In this document: positions 6,367 to 60,081 of the stretch, in pieces
Position numbering within the stretch: the stretch's first letter is position 1
Layout of the letters: the number at the start of each line of letters is the position of its first letter
Assembly (NCBI GenBank): GCA_016219645.1
Contig: JACRLR010000020.1
Coordinates: forward strand, 62,001 to 126,000
Direction: 5' to 3'
Source of the DNA: Nitrospirota bacterium
Lineage (GTDB): Bacteria > Nitrospirota > Nitrospiria > Nitrospirales > Nitrospiraceae
DNA length: 64,000 nucleotides
Notes under the pieces: model-generated
The model's database searches: none
What the model was told of the DNA's origin: nothing
The model's input: only the letters and a program-made list of their open reading frames with translations
Program-made: the position numbers and the translations under genes

Positions 6367-7407
6367 ATGACAACCATTTCACCATCGACCTCAACCTGGA
6401 TATCGGGACCAATCCTGGGTATCGAGACGTCCTGCGATGAGACAGCCGCAGCGGTGCTTGCTGCAGACGGCGCAGTTCTTTCGAATGTGATTACGTCGCA
6501 ACACGATGTCCACCAGCGATTTGGCGGCGTCGTTCCCGAACTTGCCTCCCGCGCCCATATTGAATCGATTGAAGCGGTCTCCGCTGAGGCGATAGGACAG
6601 GCGGGTCTCGCATGGACGGAACTTACCGGGATAGCCGTCACCCAGGGACCGGGCCTAGCCGGGGCCCTTCTGGTCGGAGTCAGTTATGCAAAGGCTCTTG
6701 GCTATGCCTTGAACATTCCGGTCGTAGGTGTCAGCCATCTTGAAGGTCACATCGCTTCTGCCTGGTTGAAGGATCCAGCGTTTCCATTACCCAGCGTGGT
6801 ACTGGTTGTCTCGGGTGGTCATACCCATCTCTATTACAAACAGGCTGATGGTCATTGCCGACTTCTGGGCGCTACCAGAGACGATGCGGCAGGGGAGGCC
6901 TTTGACAAGGGCGCTCAATTGCTCCAATTGGGATACCCGGGGGGGCCAGCGATCGATCGTTTAGCCAGGCAAGGAAATCCTGAAGCCATCGCCTTTCCGC
7001 GTTCCCATCTCAAGAAGGGGAGTCTTGATTTCAGTTTCAGTGGTTTAAAGACATCTTTGCTCTATACACTTCAAGTAATGTCTGAGCTATCTCGCGCGGA
7101 GCAAGCTGCCGATCTCGCAGCCAGCTACCAGGAGGCTATCGTCACAATTCTGGTTGAAAAAGCTTTTGCTGCCGTTCGATCAACCGGGGTTCATGCCTTG
7201 GCAGTCGTCGGAGGGGTATCCGCCAATTCCCGTTTTCGTACGTTGCTCGAGCAACGAGCCGCATCAGAATCCGTAGACTTGAGCCTGCCCCCCCTGGCTT
7301 ATTGTACGGACAATGCTGCGATGATTGCGGCAGCCGGGAGGCATTCGCTTCAGGCAGGGCTCAGGGGCACACTGGAAATCGATGCGCACGTCTCACTATC
7401 TGGTTGA
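6367..7407 (+). CDS. tsaD: tRNA N6-adenosine threonylcarbamoyltransferase
   Basis: Transfers the threonylcarbamoyl group from TC-AMP to A37 of ANN-decoding tRNAs, with TsaB and TsaE; the enzyme making TC-AMP (tsaC) is also in this window at 45 kb. 346 residues from the ATG at 6367; a TTG two codons upstream (6361) is an alternative and neither has a strong ribosome site. Kae1/Qri7/TsaD family marks are ILGIETSCDETAAAV near the N-terminus, the metal-binding VSHLEGHIASAW (HxxxH), VVSGGHTHLYY, the switch GDDAAGEAFDKGAQLL-like block (here DDAAGEAFDKGAQ) and VVGGVSANSRFR. The stop is followed at once by a 9-bp-unit palindromic array. Confidence 0.95.
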   Translation: MTTISPSTSTWISGPILGIETSCDETAAAVLAADGAVLSNVITSQHDVHQRFGGVVPELASRAHIESIEAVSAEAIGQAGLAWTELTGIAVTQGPGLAGALLVGVSYAKALGYALNIPVVGVSHLEGHIASAWLKDPAFPLPSVVLVVSGGHTHLYYKQADGHCRLLGATRDDAAGEAFDKGAQLLQLGYPGGPAIDRLARQGNPEAIAFPRSHLKKGSLDFSFSGLKTSLLYTLQVMSELSRAEQAADLAASYQEAIVTILVEKAFAAVRSTGVHALAVVGGVSANSRFRTLLEQRAASESVDLSLPPLAYCTDNAAMIAAAGRHSLQAGLRGTLEIDAHVSLSG

Positions 7408-7410
7408 TGA

Positions 7411-7521
7411 GGTCCATCAGGTCTATCTGATCTGTCTCGTATGTTTGGTCTGACGAAAACTAACCAGATGAACCAGACAGACTAGACAGACCAGACAGAC
7501 CGAATAGACCAGATAGACCGG
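7411..7521 (+). repeat. 9-bp-unit palindromic array, copy a (tsaD-hflX gap)
   Basis: Left arm of 9-mers (GTCCATCAG, GTCTATCTG, ATCTGTCTC, GTATGTTTG) around a GACGAAAAC loop, then a longer right arm of complementary 9-mers (CCAGACAGA, CAGATAGAC type). Member of an eight-copy intergenic family in this window. Confidence 0.8.
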
Positions 7522-15721: not shown

Positions 15722-15799
15722 CAGGCTGCAGAAAAACTCAGTCTATACGTAACAGCACCGCTGAAACCTCACAGAATGGCGCTGATGTTACAATAGCTC

Positions 15800-15951
15800 A
15801 GGATGCTCAAAAAGACCGTCCAGCAAGGCCGCAGCGAGTGAAGAAGGCTTAGGGCGAGGTTACGGTTAAGCGTCGAGCCGATTCTGGCTTGCTCAACCTT
15901 AACCTCAACCTTAACCTTCCGATAACGCCGGCGAACTTTTTCAGCATCCTG
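15800..15951 (+). repeat. MITE-like inverted repeat (family 2), accB-accC gap
   Basis: Outer ends AGGATGCTCAAAAAG and CTTTTTCAGCATCCTG pair; the left arm continues CCGTCCAGCAAGGCCGCAG as in other copies at 21.4, 47.2 and 51.3 kb. The interior differs from those copies: it holds a CTTAACC-rich stretch at 15897-15918, giving about 152 bp instead of 126. An alternative accC start at 15889 would lie inside it and is rejected. Confidence 0.75.
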
Positions 15952-21382: not shown

Positions 21383-21434
21383 TCAGACCAGAACTTCGTT
21401 GGTCTGCACGTCACGGCAACAGGAACATACCGTA

Positions 21435-21562
21435 CCGGACGCTCAAAACGTTCGTCCAGCAAGGCCGCAGCCGAAGAAAGCACCGGAGACGTAGCCTCTG
21501 GGCTACGTTGAGGATGCTTTCGAGGTGAGAACGAAGCTGGCGAGCGTTTTCAGCGTCCGGTT
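21435..21562 (+). repeat. MITE-like inverted repeat (family 2), bioD-SDR gap
   Basis: Ends CCGGACGCTCAAAACG and CGTTTTCAGCGTCCGG pair exactly except one base. An inner hairpin CGTAGCCTCTGGGCTACG sits at 21490-21507. The right tip runs into TTA at 21561-21563, which is the stop codon of the SDR gene read on the minus strand. Confidence 0.85.
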
Positions 21563-22313
21563 AAAGGCTTCGGCTGTCACAGTTCCAAACCTGTCCTGAG
21601 ATCCCCGTGAGTCCCGCCAGATGGACGATGGTGGTTGCCACTTCTTCGATCGCCGGAGGACGGCGTAGTGCGTGATCCATCCAGCCCTCGCCATCAGGGA
21701 ACACCCCCTCGGTCAAGGCTGTTTTGTGCCATCCCGGCAGCACGAGATTTACTTGGATATTCTGCGATCCCCACTCGAGCGCCGCTGTCTTGACCAGTCC
21801 GATCAGTCCGGCTTTCGACGTCGCGTAGGCAGCTTGGCCGGTAGCCCCATGAAATCCCGTATGGGAACCGAGCACAATAATGGCGCCACCTCCGCGGGCC
21901 AGCAATGGAGGTGCCATGGCGCGGACACAGTGAAATGTACCGGTCAGGTTCGTGGCCACTATCTCAGCCCATTCCTGTTCCCGCTCTTTGAGTACGAGGC
22001 TGCCTCCCCCGATCCCCGCATTGCAGACAAACACCGATGGAGCCGGTCTGAGCCGGGAGGAAGCTTCCACCATCTGTTGCACGTCAGAGAACTCGCGAAT
22101 ATCCGCCTGGTAGAGTGCCCCAGCTCCACCCGCAGACACGACTTGCGTCAGCGTCTCCTCAGCCCCTGACTTGTTTCGATAGTAATGGATCCCGATAGAC
22201 CAGCCGGCCACAGCAAAGGCCAGACTGATCGCACGACCAATCCCCCCGGACGCGCCGGTCACAAGGACGGCCTGTTTCTGGTTGATTTGGTTCATTTTGT
22301 TTGTTTGGTTCAT
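21561..22313 (-). CDS. Short-chain dehydrogenase/reductase (FabG-like)
   Basis: A 250-residue classical SDR using NAD(P)H. Marks: cofactor loop TGASGGIGRAI near residues 19-29, NAG in VFVCNAGIGG, catalytic Ser in VLGSHTGFHG, and YATSK with the catalytic Tyr and Lys. C-terminal LPGWHKTALTEG and a final VWNCDSRSL. It resembles 3-oxoacyl-ACP reductases; the substrate cannot be named. The first 12 residues (MNQTNKMNQINQ) are encoded by a 9-bp palindromic array, so the start is uncertain: ATG at 22313 or 22295, neither with a ribosome site. Confidence 0.85.
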   Translation of the reverse strand: MNQTNKMNQINQKQAVLVTGASGGIGRAISLAFAVAGWSIGIHYYRNKSGAEETLTQVVSAGGAGALYQADIREFSDVQQMVEASSRLRPAPSVFVCNAGIGGGSLVLKEREQEWAEIVATNLTGTFHCVRAMAPPLLARGGGAIIVLGSHTGFHGATGQAAYATSKAGLIGLVKTAALEWGSQNIQVNLVLPGWHKTALTEGVFPDGEGWMDHALRRPPAIEEVATTIVHLAGLTGISGQVWNCDSRSL

Positions 22314-22374
22314 CTAGTTGGCCCGGTATATCTCGTTTGTCTTGTGACTTCACTCCAAGAAACCAAATAAACTA
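22278..22374 (+). repeat. 9-bp-unit palindromic array, copy b (overlaps SDR start)
   Basis: Units GTTGATTTG, GTTCATTTT, GTTTGTTTG, GTTCATCTA, then degenerate GTATATCTC, GTTTGTCTTG, and a short right arm AAACCAAATAAACTAAGG. The left arm is part of the SDR reading frame. The right arm is shorter than in other copies. Confidence 0.7.
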
Positions 22375-22538
22375 AGGAAGGTCTGATTAATTCATGTTTG
22401 CACGAAGAACTCTGTTCCTGGGTGGATCAACGGGGGCAAACAGGTGGGAATCCGCTGGTCCGAGCGCGTCTTTCTCGGGGTTAGCCCGCTGTCGGGCCGC
22501 CCGGAACCTCGCTGCTGCTTGTAGGAAGCATCTGGTCC

Positions 22539-27232: not shown

Positions 27233-27403
27233 GCCTCGCCGCCCTCTTCCCCCATTGAGCCACCACCCGTAGCGCAATAGACCCATTTTCTTTCCGGCCC
27301 TCCTTCGCTTATGATGGAGTAGCTAGCCGTCCTCGCCGTTCGTGAAGCGTGAAACGTCCGAATCCGAAAACGAACGACGCTTCACGCGATACGCTTCACG
27401 GGT

Positions 27404-27445
27404 TTCGAGAACGCCGCTGGATGACTTTTTTAAGATCCTGCTAGA
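27404..27445 (+). repeat. Partial family 2 element upstream of mrp
   Basis: The right end only: GAGAACGCCGCTGGATGAC, TTTTTTAAGATCCTGCTAG, closely following the right arms at 21.5 and 47.3 kb. The left side instead has GTGAAGCGTGAAACG paired with CGCTTCACG (27340-27400). A decayed or recombined copy. Confidence 0.45.
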
Positions 27446-31053: not shown

Positions 31054-31140
31054 TGGTTTGTTTGGTTTATTTAGTTTGTTTGGTTGCTCTGGATCAAACA
31101 ACTACACAAACCAGATAAACCAGATGGACCATATGAACTG
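31054..31140 (+). repeat. 9-bp-unit palindromic array, copy c (inside pdh cluster)
   Basis: Left arm GTTTGTTTG, GTTTATTTA, GTTTGTTTG, GTTGCTCTG; short loop; right arm CAAACCAGATAAACCAGATG. Starts 12 bp after the stop of the upstream gene and ends 12 bp before the next start. Confidence 0.8.
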
Positions 31141-31553: not shown

Positions 31554-31766
31554 GGATGCTCAAAAAGGCCATCAGTCACACCCGCCTAACCAGAGGCGTG
31601 CCAAGACGCGCCTCTGTCCCGGGCGAGGCCGCATCAAACAATCACTTTATAAGGGGTGGCTGGGATGATACCAACTGCGCGCGTCCAACGAGGGCCTTCT
31701 CAGGCCGCGCGTTGCGCGAGCACAGGGATCGTCCCAGCCACCCCGCTCATTTTTTTCAGCATCCGT
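31554..31766 (+). repeat. Composite repeat: family 2 ends around a family 3 hairpin, upstream of pdhC
   Basis: Outer ends GGATGCTCAAAAAGG and TTTTTTTCAGCATCC. Nested at 31653-31744 is the hairpin GGGGTGGCTGGGATGATACC to GATCGTCCCAGCCACCCC with CTGCGCGCGTCCAACGAGG and CGCGCGTTGCGCGAGCACAG inside. Same architecture as 29408-29664, about 2.1 kb upstream, in the same orientation. Confidence 0.85.
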
Positions 31767-36641: not shown

Positions 36642-36688
36642 ACCATTTGGCTCGCGCGCTCTTGCCAGTCTCAATCATGAGGGCTGGT

Positions 36689-36803
36689 AGCCCGCATTAT
36701 TCATGGCTCTCCTGAGTACGCCTCAGGTCCTCCGGGCTCCGCGCGCCGGTCTCACGACGCGGCGTGGCATTTTCCCTACGAACAGTCATGAGTAATGCGG
36801 GCT
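36689..36803 (+). repeat. 115-bp palindromic element (family 4)
   Basis: AGCCCGCATTATTCATG at 36689-36705 pairs with CATGAGTAATGCGGGCT at 36787-36803 (two mismatches). The middle holds TACGCCTCAGGTCCTCCGGG and a CGCGCGCCGG segment. Only one copy in this window. It ends 17 bp before the degP start. Confidence 0.75.
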
Positions 36804-36820
36804 AGGCTTCACCCTCATCC

Positions 36821-38249: not shown

Positions 38250-38340
38250 CTGGTTTGTTTGGTCTATCTGGTTTGTCTGGTTTTTGGGTTGGACGAACCC
38301 AACCAGATAAACCAAATCAACCGACAAACAAAACAACCCA
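38250..38340 (+). repeat. 9-bp-unit palindromic array, copy d (between convergent degP and EF-G-like gene)
   Basis: Left arm GTTTGTTTG, GTCTATCTG, GTTTGTCTG, GTTTTTGGG; loop TTGGACGAACCC; right arm AACCAGATAAACCAAATCAA and further CAAAC units. It starts right after the degP stop and ends just before the stop of the opposing gene. The cleanest copy for seeing the 9-bp period. Confidence 0.85.
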
Positions 38341-40460: not shown

Positions 40461-40550
40461 TGTTGTTCATTTGGTCTGTTTTGTTTGTCTCGTTTGTTTG
40501 GTTAAACGAAAAAACCAGATAAACCAAACAAACCAAACAAACCAGACTTG
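40461..40550 (+). repeat. 9-bp-unit palindromic array, copy e (radC to EF-G-like gap)
   Basis: Left arm GTTCATTTG, GTCTGTTTT, GTTTGTCTC, GTTTGTTTG; loop TTAAACGAAAA; right arm AACCAGATAAACCAAACAAA continuing CCAAACAAACCAGAC. It lies between two minus-strand genes, within 12 bp of the EF-G-like ribosome region. Confidence 0.85.
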
Positions 40551-44193: not shown

Positions 44194-44280
44194 GTTATTT
44201 CGTTTATTTGGTTTGTCTCGTTTGTTTGGTTGACTGAGACTAACTGGACAAACCAAATCAACCAAATAAACAAAACAAAC
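44194..44280 (+). repeat. 9-bp-unit palindromic array, copy f
   Basis: Left arm TTATTTC, GTTTATTTG, GTTTGTCTC, GTTTGTTTG; loop GTTGACTGAGACTAAC; right arm CAAACCAAATCAACCAAATA and CAAAC units. It begins 12 bp after the aminotransferase stop and ends 24 bp before the next start. Confidence 0.85.
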
Positions 44281-44304
44281 CCGGCCAGTTGGAGGAAAGG
44301 AAAC

Positions 44305-57237: not shown

Positions 57238-57325
57238 GTTATTTGGTTTGTTTAGTTTATTTGGTTCATCAGGTTCGTTTCTTTCAACCAAAAAACCAAA
57301 CAAACCAGATCAACAAAACAAACCA
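57238..57325 (+). repeat. 9-bp-unit palindromic array, copy g (dnaE-accA gap)
   Basis: Left arm TTATTTG, GTTTGTTTA, GTTTATTTG, GTTCATCAG, GTTCGTTTC; right arm AACCAAAAAACCAAACAAAC and CAGATCAACAAAACAAACC. Starts 16 bp after the dnaE stop and ends 11 bp before accA. Confidence 0.82.
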
Positions 57326-60009: not shown

Positions 60010-60081
60010 ACAGGTTGGTCTGGCTTATTTGGTTCATCTGGTTAGTTTTGTTCGACCAAACAAACGAGACAAACCAAATAC
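60010..60081 (+). repeat. 9-bp-unit palindromic array, copy h
   Basis: Left arm GTTGGTCTG, GCTTATTTG, GTTCATCTG, GTTAGTTTT; centre GTTCGACC; right arm AAACAAACGAGACAAACCAA. It starts directly after the stop of the small unknown gene and runs to the galE terminator-like stem. Confidence 0.8.

Follow-up and report, generated by a model that had tools for sequence, protein, structure and literature searches.

The window, the whole 64-kb stretch of DNA that was analysed, belongs to contig C20 of a Nitrospira-type genome of 3.65 Mb in 71 contigs (G000). From the Pfam matches of its neighbours, element 4, at positions 38250 to 38340, lies in the gap between the ends of a DegP-like protease gene (+) and fusA/EF-G (-), with a stop codon on either side, and starts 1 bp past that of the protease gene. 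A two-arm profile HMM, in which the GT arm and the AC arm have nine phases each and may be joined by a linker, found exactly eight such elements in the window and nothing besides. All eight sites reported in the initial annotation were recovered in this way, without extra matches. TRF and inverted-repeat searches recovered the same sites independently of the HMM. The elements were as follows.

7397 to 7519, no strand assigned: element 1, C-type (GGTCTGTCT) units, HMM score 54
22277 to 22375, no strand assigned: element 2, with the GT arm long and the AC arm short, HMM score 38
31054 to 31138, no strand assigned: element 3, in a co-directional gap, HMM score 41
38250 to 38340, no strand assigned: element 4, GT arm, centre and AC arm, HMM score 40
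40463 to 40547, no strand assigned: element 5, between radC (-) and fusA (-), HMM score 54
44195 to 44281, no strand assigned: element 6, after an aminotransferase gene and before a zinc-ribbon protein gene, HMM score 48
57239 to 57325, no strand assigned: element 7, between dnaE and accA, HMM score 48
60013 to 60080, no strand assigned: element 8, in the gap where a 104-aa ORF (+) and a sugar epimerase/dehydratase gene (-) converge, HMM score 33.5

Genes were called with a purpose-written codon-usage finder, in which starts are approximate and stops reliable. The elements had been described as lying outside conserved gene bodies. This held for most of them, but element 1 overlaps the final bases of tsaD, with an hflX-like GTPase gene next. 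Elements 3, 6 and 8 start 13 bp past the stop of a 134-aa ORF, 14 bp past the stop of the aminotransferase gene and 5 bp past a stop, respectively. Element 2 lies upstream of a short-chain dehydrogenase gene (-), and no stop codon is ahead of it.

The site of element 4 was occupied in genomes G108 and G135 and empty in G249 and G214. Orthologs of elements 5 and 8 were present in G108 and G135, and that of element 6 in G108, G249 and G135. The site of element 2 was filled in L099, L118 and G249. Element 3 was missing in G249, where the gap measures 43 bp compared to 111 bp in the window, and the site of element 1 was empty in G249 and carried a decayed remnant in G216. Element 7 was common to G000, G108, G249, G197, G214 and G135, with a varying number of units, and was missing in G216, G375, G333 and others. 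In G197 (L204) the asymmetric apex GGTTGAACGAAACTAACC of the dnaE-accA element pointed the opposite way from that of its orthologs, as would result from recombination between the arms.

Other repeats were also observed. One of them, GCAGGATGCTGAAAAAG (and GCAGGATGCTCAAAAAG), is likewise dispersed and was located at 15799-15814 and 15936-15951 and at many sites in L160-L198. In an 844-kb sample of G000 it occupied 37 loci, often adjoining 9-mer elements, and its sites were not conserved (3/25). A third type, ACGCTTCACG/CGTGAAGCGT, was found at 27328-27413 and in the upstream flank of L324; it had 28 loci in the sample, also adjoined an element in a Desulfobacterota MAG, and its sites were not conserved either (2/16). 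Intergenic imperfect inverted repeats with arms of 20-21 nt, unrelated to the 9-mer unit, were present at 21434-21561, 31653-31744 and 36688-36804.

Structure, abundance and distribution of the arrays

The unit was refined to N-G-T-Y-N-R-T-Y-T, and its profile was identical in both arms (498 left-arm and 519 right-arm units). Position 2 was G in 97-98% of the units, and T was found at position 3 in 97-99%, at position 7 in 96% and at position 9 in 92%. Positions 4, 6 and 8 were Y, R and Y, while positions 1 and 5 were loose. The unit was originally given as GTYYRTYTG, but position 5 is T, C or G instead of Y, and just 72% have the first G. Two arms were found in 104 of the 125 elements in the 844-kb sample, and these elements had a median length of 92 bp with arms of mostly four to five units. 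The earlier figure was four to six units per arm; the range is 1 to 13. Unit number is unconstrained, and the counts in the two arms of an element were uncorrelated (r 0.02). The two facing arms had further been described as separated by a short loop. The facing arrangement was found, but the spacing of the arms is variable: about half of the elements share a common central register, GGTTNAACC, and the remainder vary. T-type (GGTTTGTTT) and C-type (GGTCTGTCT) elements could be distinguished, and the type was correlated between the arms of one element (r 0.62). The order of the arms was invariant, with the GT arm first; the AC-first form did not occur in 396 genomes. Almost all motif 11-mers (272/276) were located inside elements, and the four outside compare to two expected from codon-shuffled genes.

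The 844-kb sample represents 23% of G000. In this sample the HMM detected 125 elements, one per 6.75 kb, compared to a single one after local shuffling, from which a copy number of about 540 (roughly 500) was extrapolated for the whole genome. An exact palindrome pattern gave 74 matches across G000 and none for the reversed control. These counts put the arrays far above chance. With a period of 9 bp, or three codons, the arrays can be read as open frames such as LVCLVYLV, and the explanation of these peptide readings as a consequence of the period stands. That the arrays themselves are chance low-complexity tracts or coding repeats is almost certainly wrong and has been refuted: one shuffled match stands against 125, about 90% or more of the elements are intergenic, purines, although synonymous in a Val codon, are avoided at position 4, and position 1 is unrestricted. 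A coding repeat was also rejected because the substitutions do not match codons. A G-quadruplex was rejected because the leading G of the unit is not constrained. The arrays are real and under-described.

Of 396 genomes drawn from the whole phylum, 27 carried the exact palindrome pattern, and these 27 belong to one family; none of the 396 carried the reversed (AC-first) control. At the genus level it occurred in 30 of 32 genomes with 0-96 strict copies each. Strict counts are too low: G077 had 6 strict copies in total but 7 HMM elements within 60 kb. In a scan of 84,980 species genomes, all but one of the matches listed were titled Nitrospira or Nitrospirae/Nitrospirota. The exception was one Desulfobacterota MAG (titled Deltaproteobacteria) with elements on two contigs, and none of 60 relatives of this MAG contained elements. 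The arrays are found chiefly in one Nitrospira genus and sporadically in the rest of its taxonomic family; beyond that family they were missing from the sampled genomes apart from this MAG. The elements in the MAG may derive from either horizontal acquisition or early spread. At L068:2934-3267 (L325) of the MAG, three consecutive 9-mer elements take up the space that separates a pilM-like from a pilN-like gene. In IMG/VR one contig was found, whose element is flanked by another Nitrospira-type repeat. This contig carries tail-protein-like genes and begins with a Nitrospira-type composite of the ATGCTGAAAAAG repeat and a 9-mer element (L285:60-172); it may stem from a Nitrospira phage or from an assembly junction. 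In plasmid collections the search matched stretches of just 37 bp in two Flavobacterium plasmids, and phage collections gave no match.

On a DnaE-AccA tree, the densely occupied genomes G197, G135, G000, G108 and G249 fell into one clade together with the sparse genomes G214 and G216. G216, the sister of G000 on this tree, had 4 elements per 100 kb compared to 11-16, with low scores, and several of its orthologous sites were lost or decayed. Relaxed constraint in G216 is suggestive only, as the sample of 64 units is small. G085, G153 and G214 were likewise sparse. The sparse and decayed elements of G216 indicate that the array system is dispensable.

Site retention, motif constraint and spread

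Sixty-four elements from other genomes were mapped by their flanks to the G000 sample. Fifty-two of these sites were occupied in G000, and 55 with a looser pipeline, while 100 of 539 G000 gaps (19%) contain an element, the share expected by chance. The two other dispersed repeats, taken from the same sequences and mapped in the same way, were retained at 3 of 25 and 2 of 16 sites (5/41, 12%). Fourfold-degenerate sites in the window region differed at 44-52% between G000 and G108, G249, G135 or G214, and 43-48% of these differences were transitions. In 50 pairs of orthologous elements the differences amounted to 2.6% at position 2, 2.8% at position 3, 5.5% at position 7, 8.8% at position 9 and 14.6% at position 4, compared to 24-28% at positions 1, 5, 6 and 8. 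At position 8, 97 of 105 differences (92%) were transitions. The constraint is strong and specific to motif positions, and it applies to both arms. When uniform mutation of 10-15% was simulated, positions 2 and 3 fell to about 0.87-0.91 in the re-detected elements, compared to 0.97-0.99 observed, and many elements vanished, so that detection bias does not explain the constraint. Concerted evolution or gene conversion among copies could mimic part of it. Orthologs had a mean alignment score of 96.6 and paralogs of 72.2. The ortholog was the best match among 113 sample elements in just 12 of 51 cases, which indicates a large turnover of units within sites. Unexpectedly, the element behaves as a maintained motif, and most sites are old.

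The elements have nevertheless been copied. Some whole-element copies were 92-94% identical and had unrelated flanks, which shows that elements were copied to new places. Flank words were shared no more often than in random element pairs, giving no sign of target-site duplication, and no inverted extension into the flanks was found. Transposases of the Y1 family (Y1_Tnp) were searched for in the 32 genus genomes. No elements were present near 29 Y1 loci of the other genus genomes, up to about 1.5 kb on each side. Among the 13 genomes that have 50 or more strict copies, 9 had a Y1 match, compared to 10 of the 19 others; four genomes with 53-93 strict copies had no Y1 match, and three of these four were less than 82% complete. 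The sole Y1 match of G000 is a 324-aa open frame at C20:51681-52004 (L254), 10 kb upstream of the window. A 9-mer element lies 335 bp away from this gene, a pairing that was not found in other genomes. Mobilisation by RAYT was rejected, as no element lay near the Y1 loci of the other genus genomes and Y1 matches were not tied to copy number.

These data bear on the explanation that the arrays are selfish, REPIN- or MITE-like repeats without host function, of which near-stop copies survive as the least harmful, and whose units are kept uniform by copying, slippage and gene conversion. Whole-element copies with unrelated flanks, patchy copy number, the single positive Desulfobacterota MAG without positive relatives (0/60), subfamilies by unit type and apex, and the poor sequence memory of many orthologs agree with it. 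It is nonetheless a somewhat doubtful explanation, since 86% of the sites were kept despite near-saturated neutral sites, compared to 12% for the two other repeats, since particular motif positions are constrained within inherited copies, and since neither a RAYT association nor a target-site duplication was found.

Position at gene ends and pairing of the arms

Simple gene calls placed about 90% of the elements in intergenic stretches; among the remainder, several were due to start-codon errors. Gene ends are the favoured place. Elements in co-directional gaps start a median of 12 bp past the stop. The initial annotation had stated that most copies begin within about 20 bp of a stop codon. 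In co-directional gaps this was true of 63-65%, namely 45 of 72 elements in G000, where uniform placement would give 30.5±2.9, and 58 of 89 elsewhere, where it would give 37.9±3.1; in the window the element at 22277 does not follow a stop. In convergent gaps of other genomes a stop was at most 28 bp away from all 34 elements, and many elements spanned the entire gap. Convergent gaps were occupied more often than divergent ones (51/161 compared to 33/187, p 0.003). The polarity of the apex showed no bias relative to the genes (22 same, 17 opposite). The 3' arm was about 5 nt longer than the 5' arm in both data sets (p 0.03-0.05), which may merely reflect trimming at the stop codon.

As the elements are packed tightly past stops, a protein on the outward arrays might form a polar roadblock at which transcription (or replication) from either side stops or is insulated. 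The often exact fill of convergent gaps, the higher occupancy of convergent gaps, the invariant GT-first order, by which the motif orientation is equal from both directions, and the lack of an intrinsic-terminator signal above chance in the scanned stretch around the elements are consistent with such a barrier. Elements were also present within likely operons, for example between the pilM-pilN-like pair of the Desulfobacterota MAG; those in divergent gaps were equally constrained, and the gene-proximal arm was if anything the shorter one. We consider a gene-end barrier unlikely. A role solely as terminator was rejected, as the elements in divergent gaps are constrained equally.

The arms were predicted to fold strongly, with a mean of about -37 kcal/mol, and together with the position past stop codons this would suit an RNA hairpin in mRNA 3' regions, acting as a terminator or exonuclease block. 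The REP hairpins between malE and malF are an analogue at the RNA level. The arms pair because both are built from one motif, and no sign of selection on RNA pairing was found. Compared with foreign right arms, the own right arm had no advantage in duplex energy (p 0.93), and in Watson-Crick alignment the difference between own and foreign arms gave p 0.08 overall, with the own arms of T-type elements slightly worse. Oriented by transcription, U·G and G·U pairs numbered 112 compared to 132 for C·A and A·C, so that wobble pairs were not in excess. The base profiles of the 5' and 3' arms were identical, without asymmetry in the direction of transcription, and no T run or U-tract followed the elements in their flanks. 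A scan for intrinsic terminators from 37 to 47 kb gave a signal below the shuffled expectation. Element-free dnaE-accA spacers showed no replacement hairpin, their mean z of -0.28 being equal to that of control gaps. Without an own-arm advantage, a G·U bias, an asymmetry with transcription, a U-tract or a substitute hairpin, the RNA reading is highly improbable, and an RNA hairpin was rejected. The term "palindromic" was accordingly appropriate for inverted arrays of one motif, but not for a co-evolved hairpin, as own arms pair no better than foreign ones; exact hairpin pairing is unconstrained. The constraint was equal in co-directional, convergent and divergent gaps, which speaks for a role at the DNA level that is independent of the direction of transcription.

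Related repeat families and possible function

As originally proposed, the arrays are not CRISPR, as the units abut without spacers, and not simple REP elements, being about 92 bp long with tandem units in each arm and without a RAYT link. Nor could they be assigned to a described family: Rfam gave no matches to the element, and no published description of 9-mer arrays was found in openly licensed papers; one may exist elsewhere. REP, BIME and REPIN sequences of the GTAG and CGTC superfamilies occur in E. coli and Pseudomonas (PMC3733652, PMC2817692, PMC3116915). The REP superfamilies have lengths of 20-40 bp and stems of 5-13 bp, and the GTAG class is linked to RAYT (PMC3733652). The Nitrospira arrays resemble them as hundreds of intergenic inverted repeats, many past stops, that are clade-specific and patchy in copy number. 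Unlike them, the arrays are about 90 bp long with a 9-bp tandem array in each arm and no adjoining RAYT, their sites are conserved between species, and the pairing of the arms is not maintained. In a survey of REP-like sequences, N. moscoviensis appears in a generic palindrome-count table, and the main text does not describe the 9-mer family (PMC12306157). The nearest precedent found is BrickBuilt, a MITE of Porphyromonas gingivalis with a minisatellite of a 23-bp unit and 19 copies in the type strain (PMC4596501). Both are intergenic dispersed elements with a body of short tandem repeats; BrickBuilt has one array with leader and tail in one species, whereas the Nitrospira family has a 9-bp unit, two facing arrays and about 500 copies.

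DNA uptake sequences (DUS/USS) are motifs of about 9-12 bp that have copy numbers in the hundreds and are often found at gene ends in inverted form. They are single motifs that are also found in genes, whereas 272 of 276 Nitrospira motif copies lie within arrays. A DNA uptake sequence was rejected because the motif is not found singly. MraZ is a protein that reads short tandem motifs along duplex DNA. It serves here as an analogy only, as its single operators have a 10-bp period and belong to one operon, while the Nitrospira arrays are inverted and number in the hundreds.

The reading that we favour, at somewhat less than even confidence, is that the arrays are dispersed repeats which arose by copying of whole elements and are now selected as inverted tandem arrays of a 9-bp recognition motif in duplex DNA. 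The family would have been mobile in the past, and a putative sequence-specific protein would bind the units along each arm, so that the element would form a two-armed protein-binding platform of about 90 bp at the DNA level. Its role would probably lie in chromosome architecture or topology, and placement past stop codons would leave promoters undisturbed. Several observations count against binding sites: strict copies range from 0 to 96 per genome with wide variation between close species, the system is dispensable, as in G216, near-identical copies indicate that spreading has continued, units within sites turn over widely, and simple binding sites do not demand an invariant GT-first order. 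A more specific form, in which the arrays are a clade-specific punctuation of the chromosome, is rather unlikely. In this case a dedicated putative DNA-binding protein would recognise the outward arrays at the ends of several hundred genes and form a two-way barrier or a topological anchor there, and loss of the protein would lead to decay of the arrays. The best candidate for the putative binder would be a gene that was lost together with the arrays in the sparse lineages.

Dispersed repeats of bacteria are commonly interpreted either as selfish elements or as RNA hairpins. Maintained and selfish repeats can be separated by comparing site retention with that of other repeats in the same genomes and divergence at motif positions with that at silent sites. 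For a family of about 500 copies in comammox and related Nitrospira, inherited positions and base-by-base constraint on the motif, together with free pairing, point to a function at the DNA level. As Nitrospira are central to nitrification and genetically hard to study, the arrays offer a clear and testable target.
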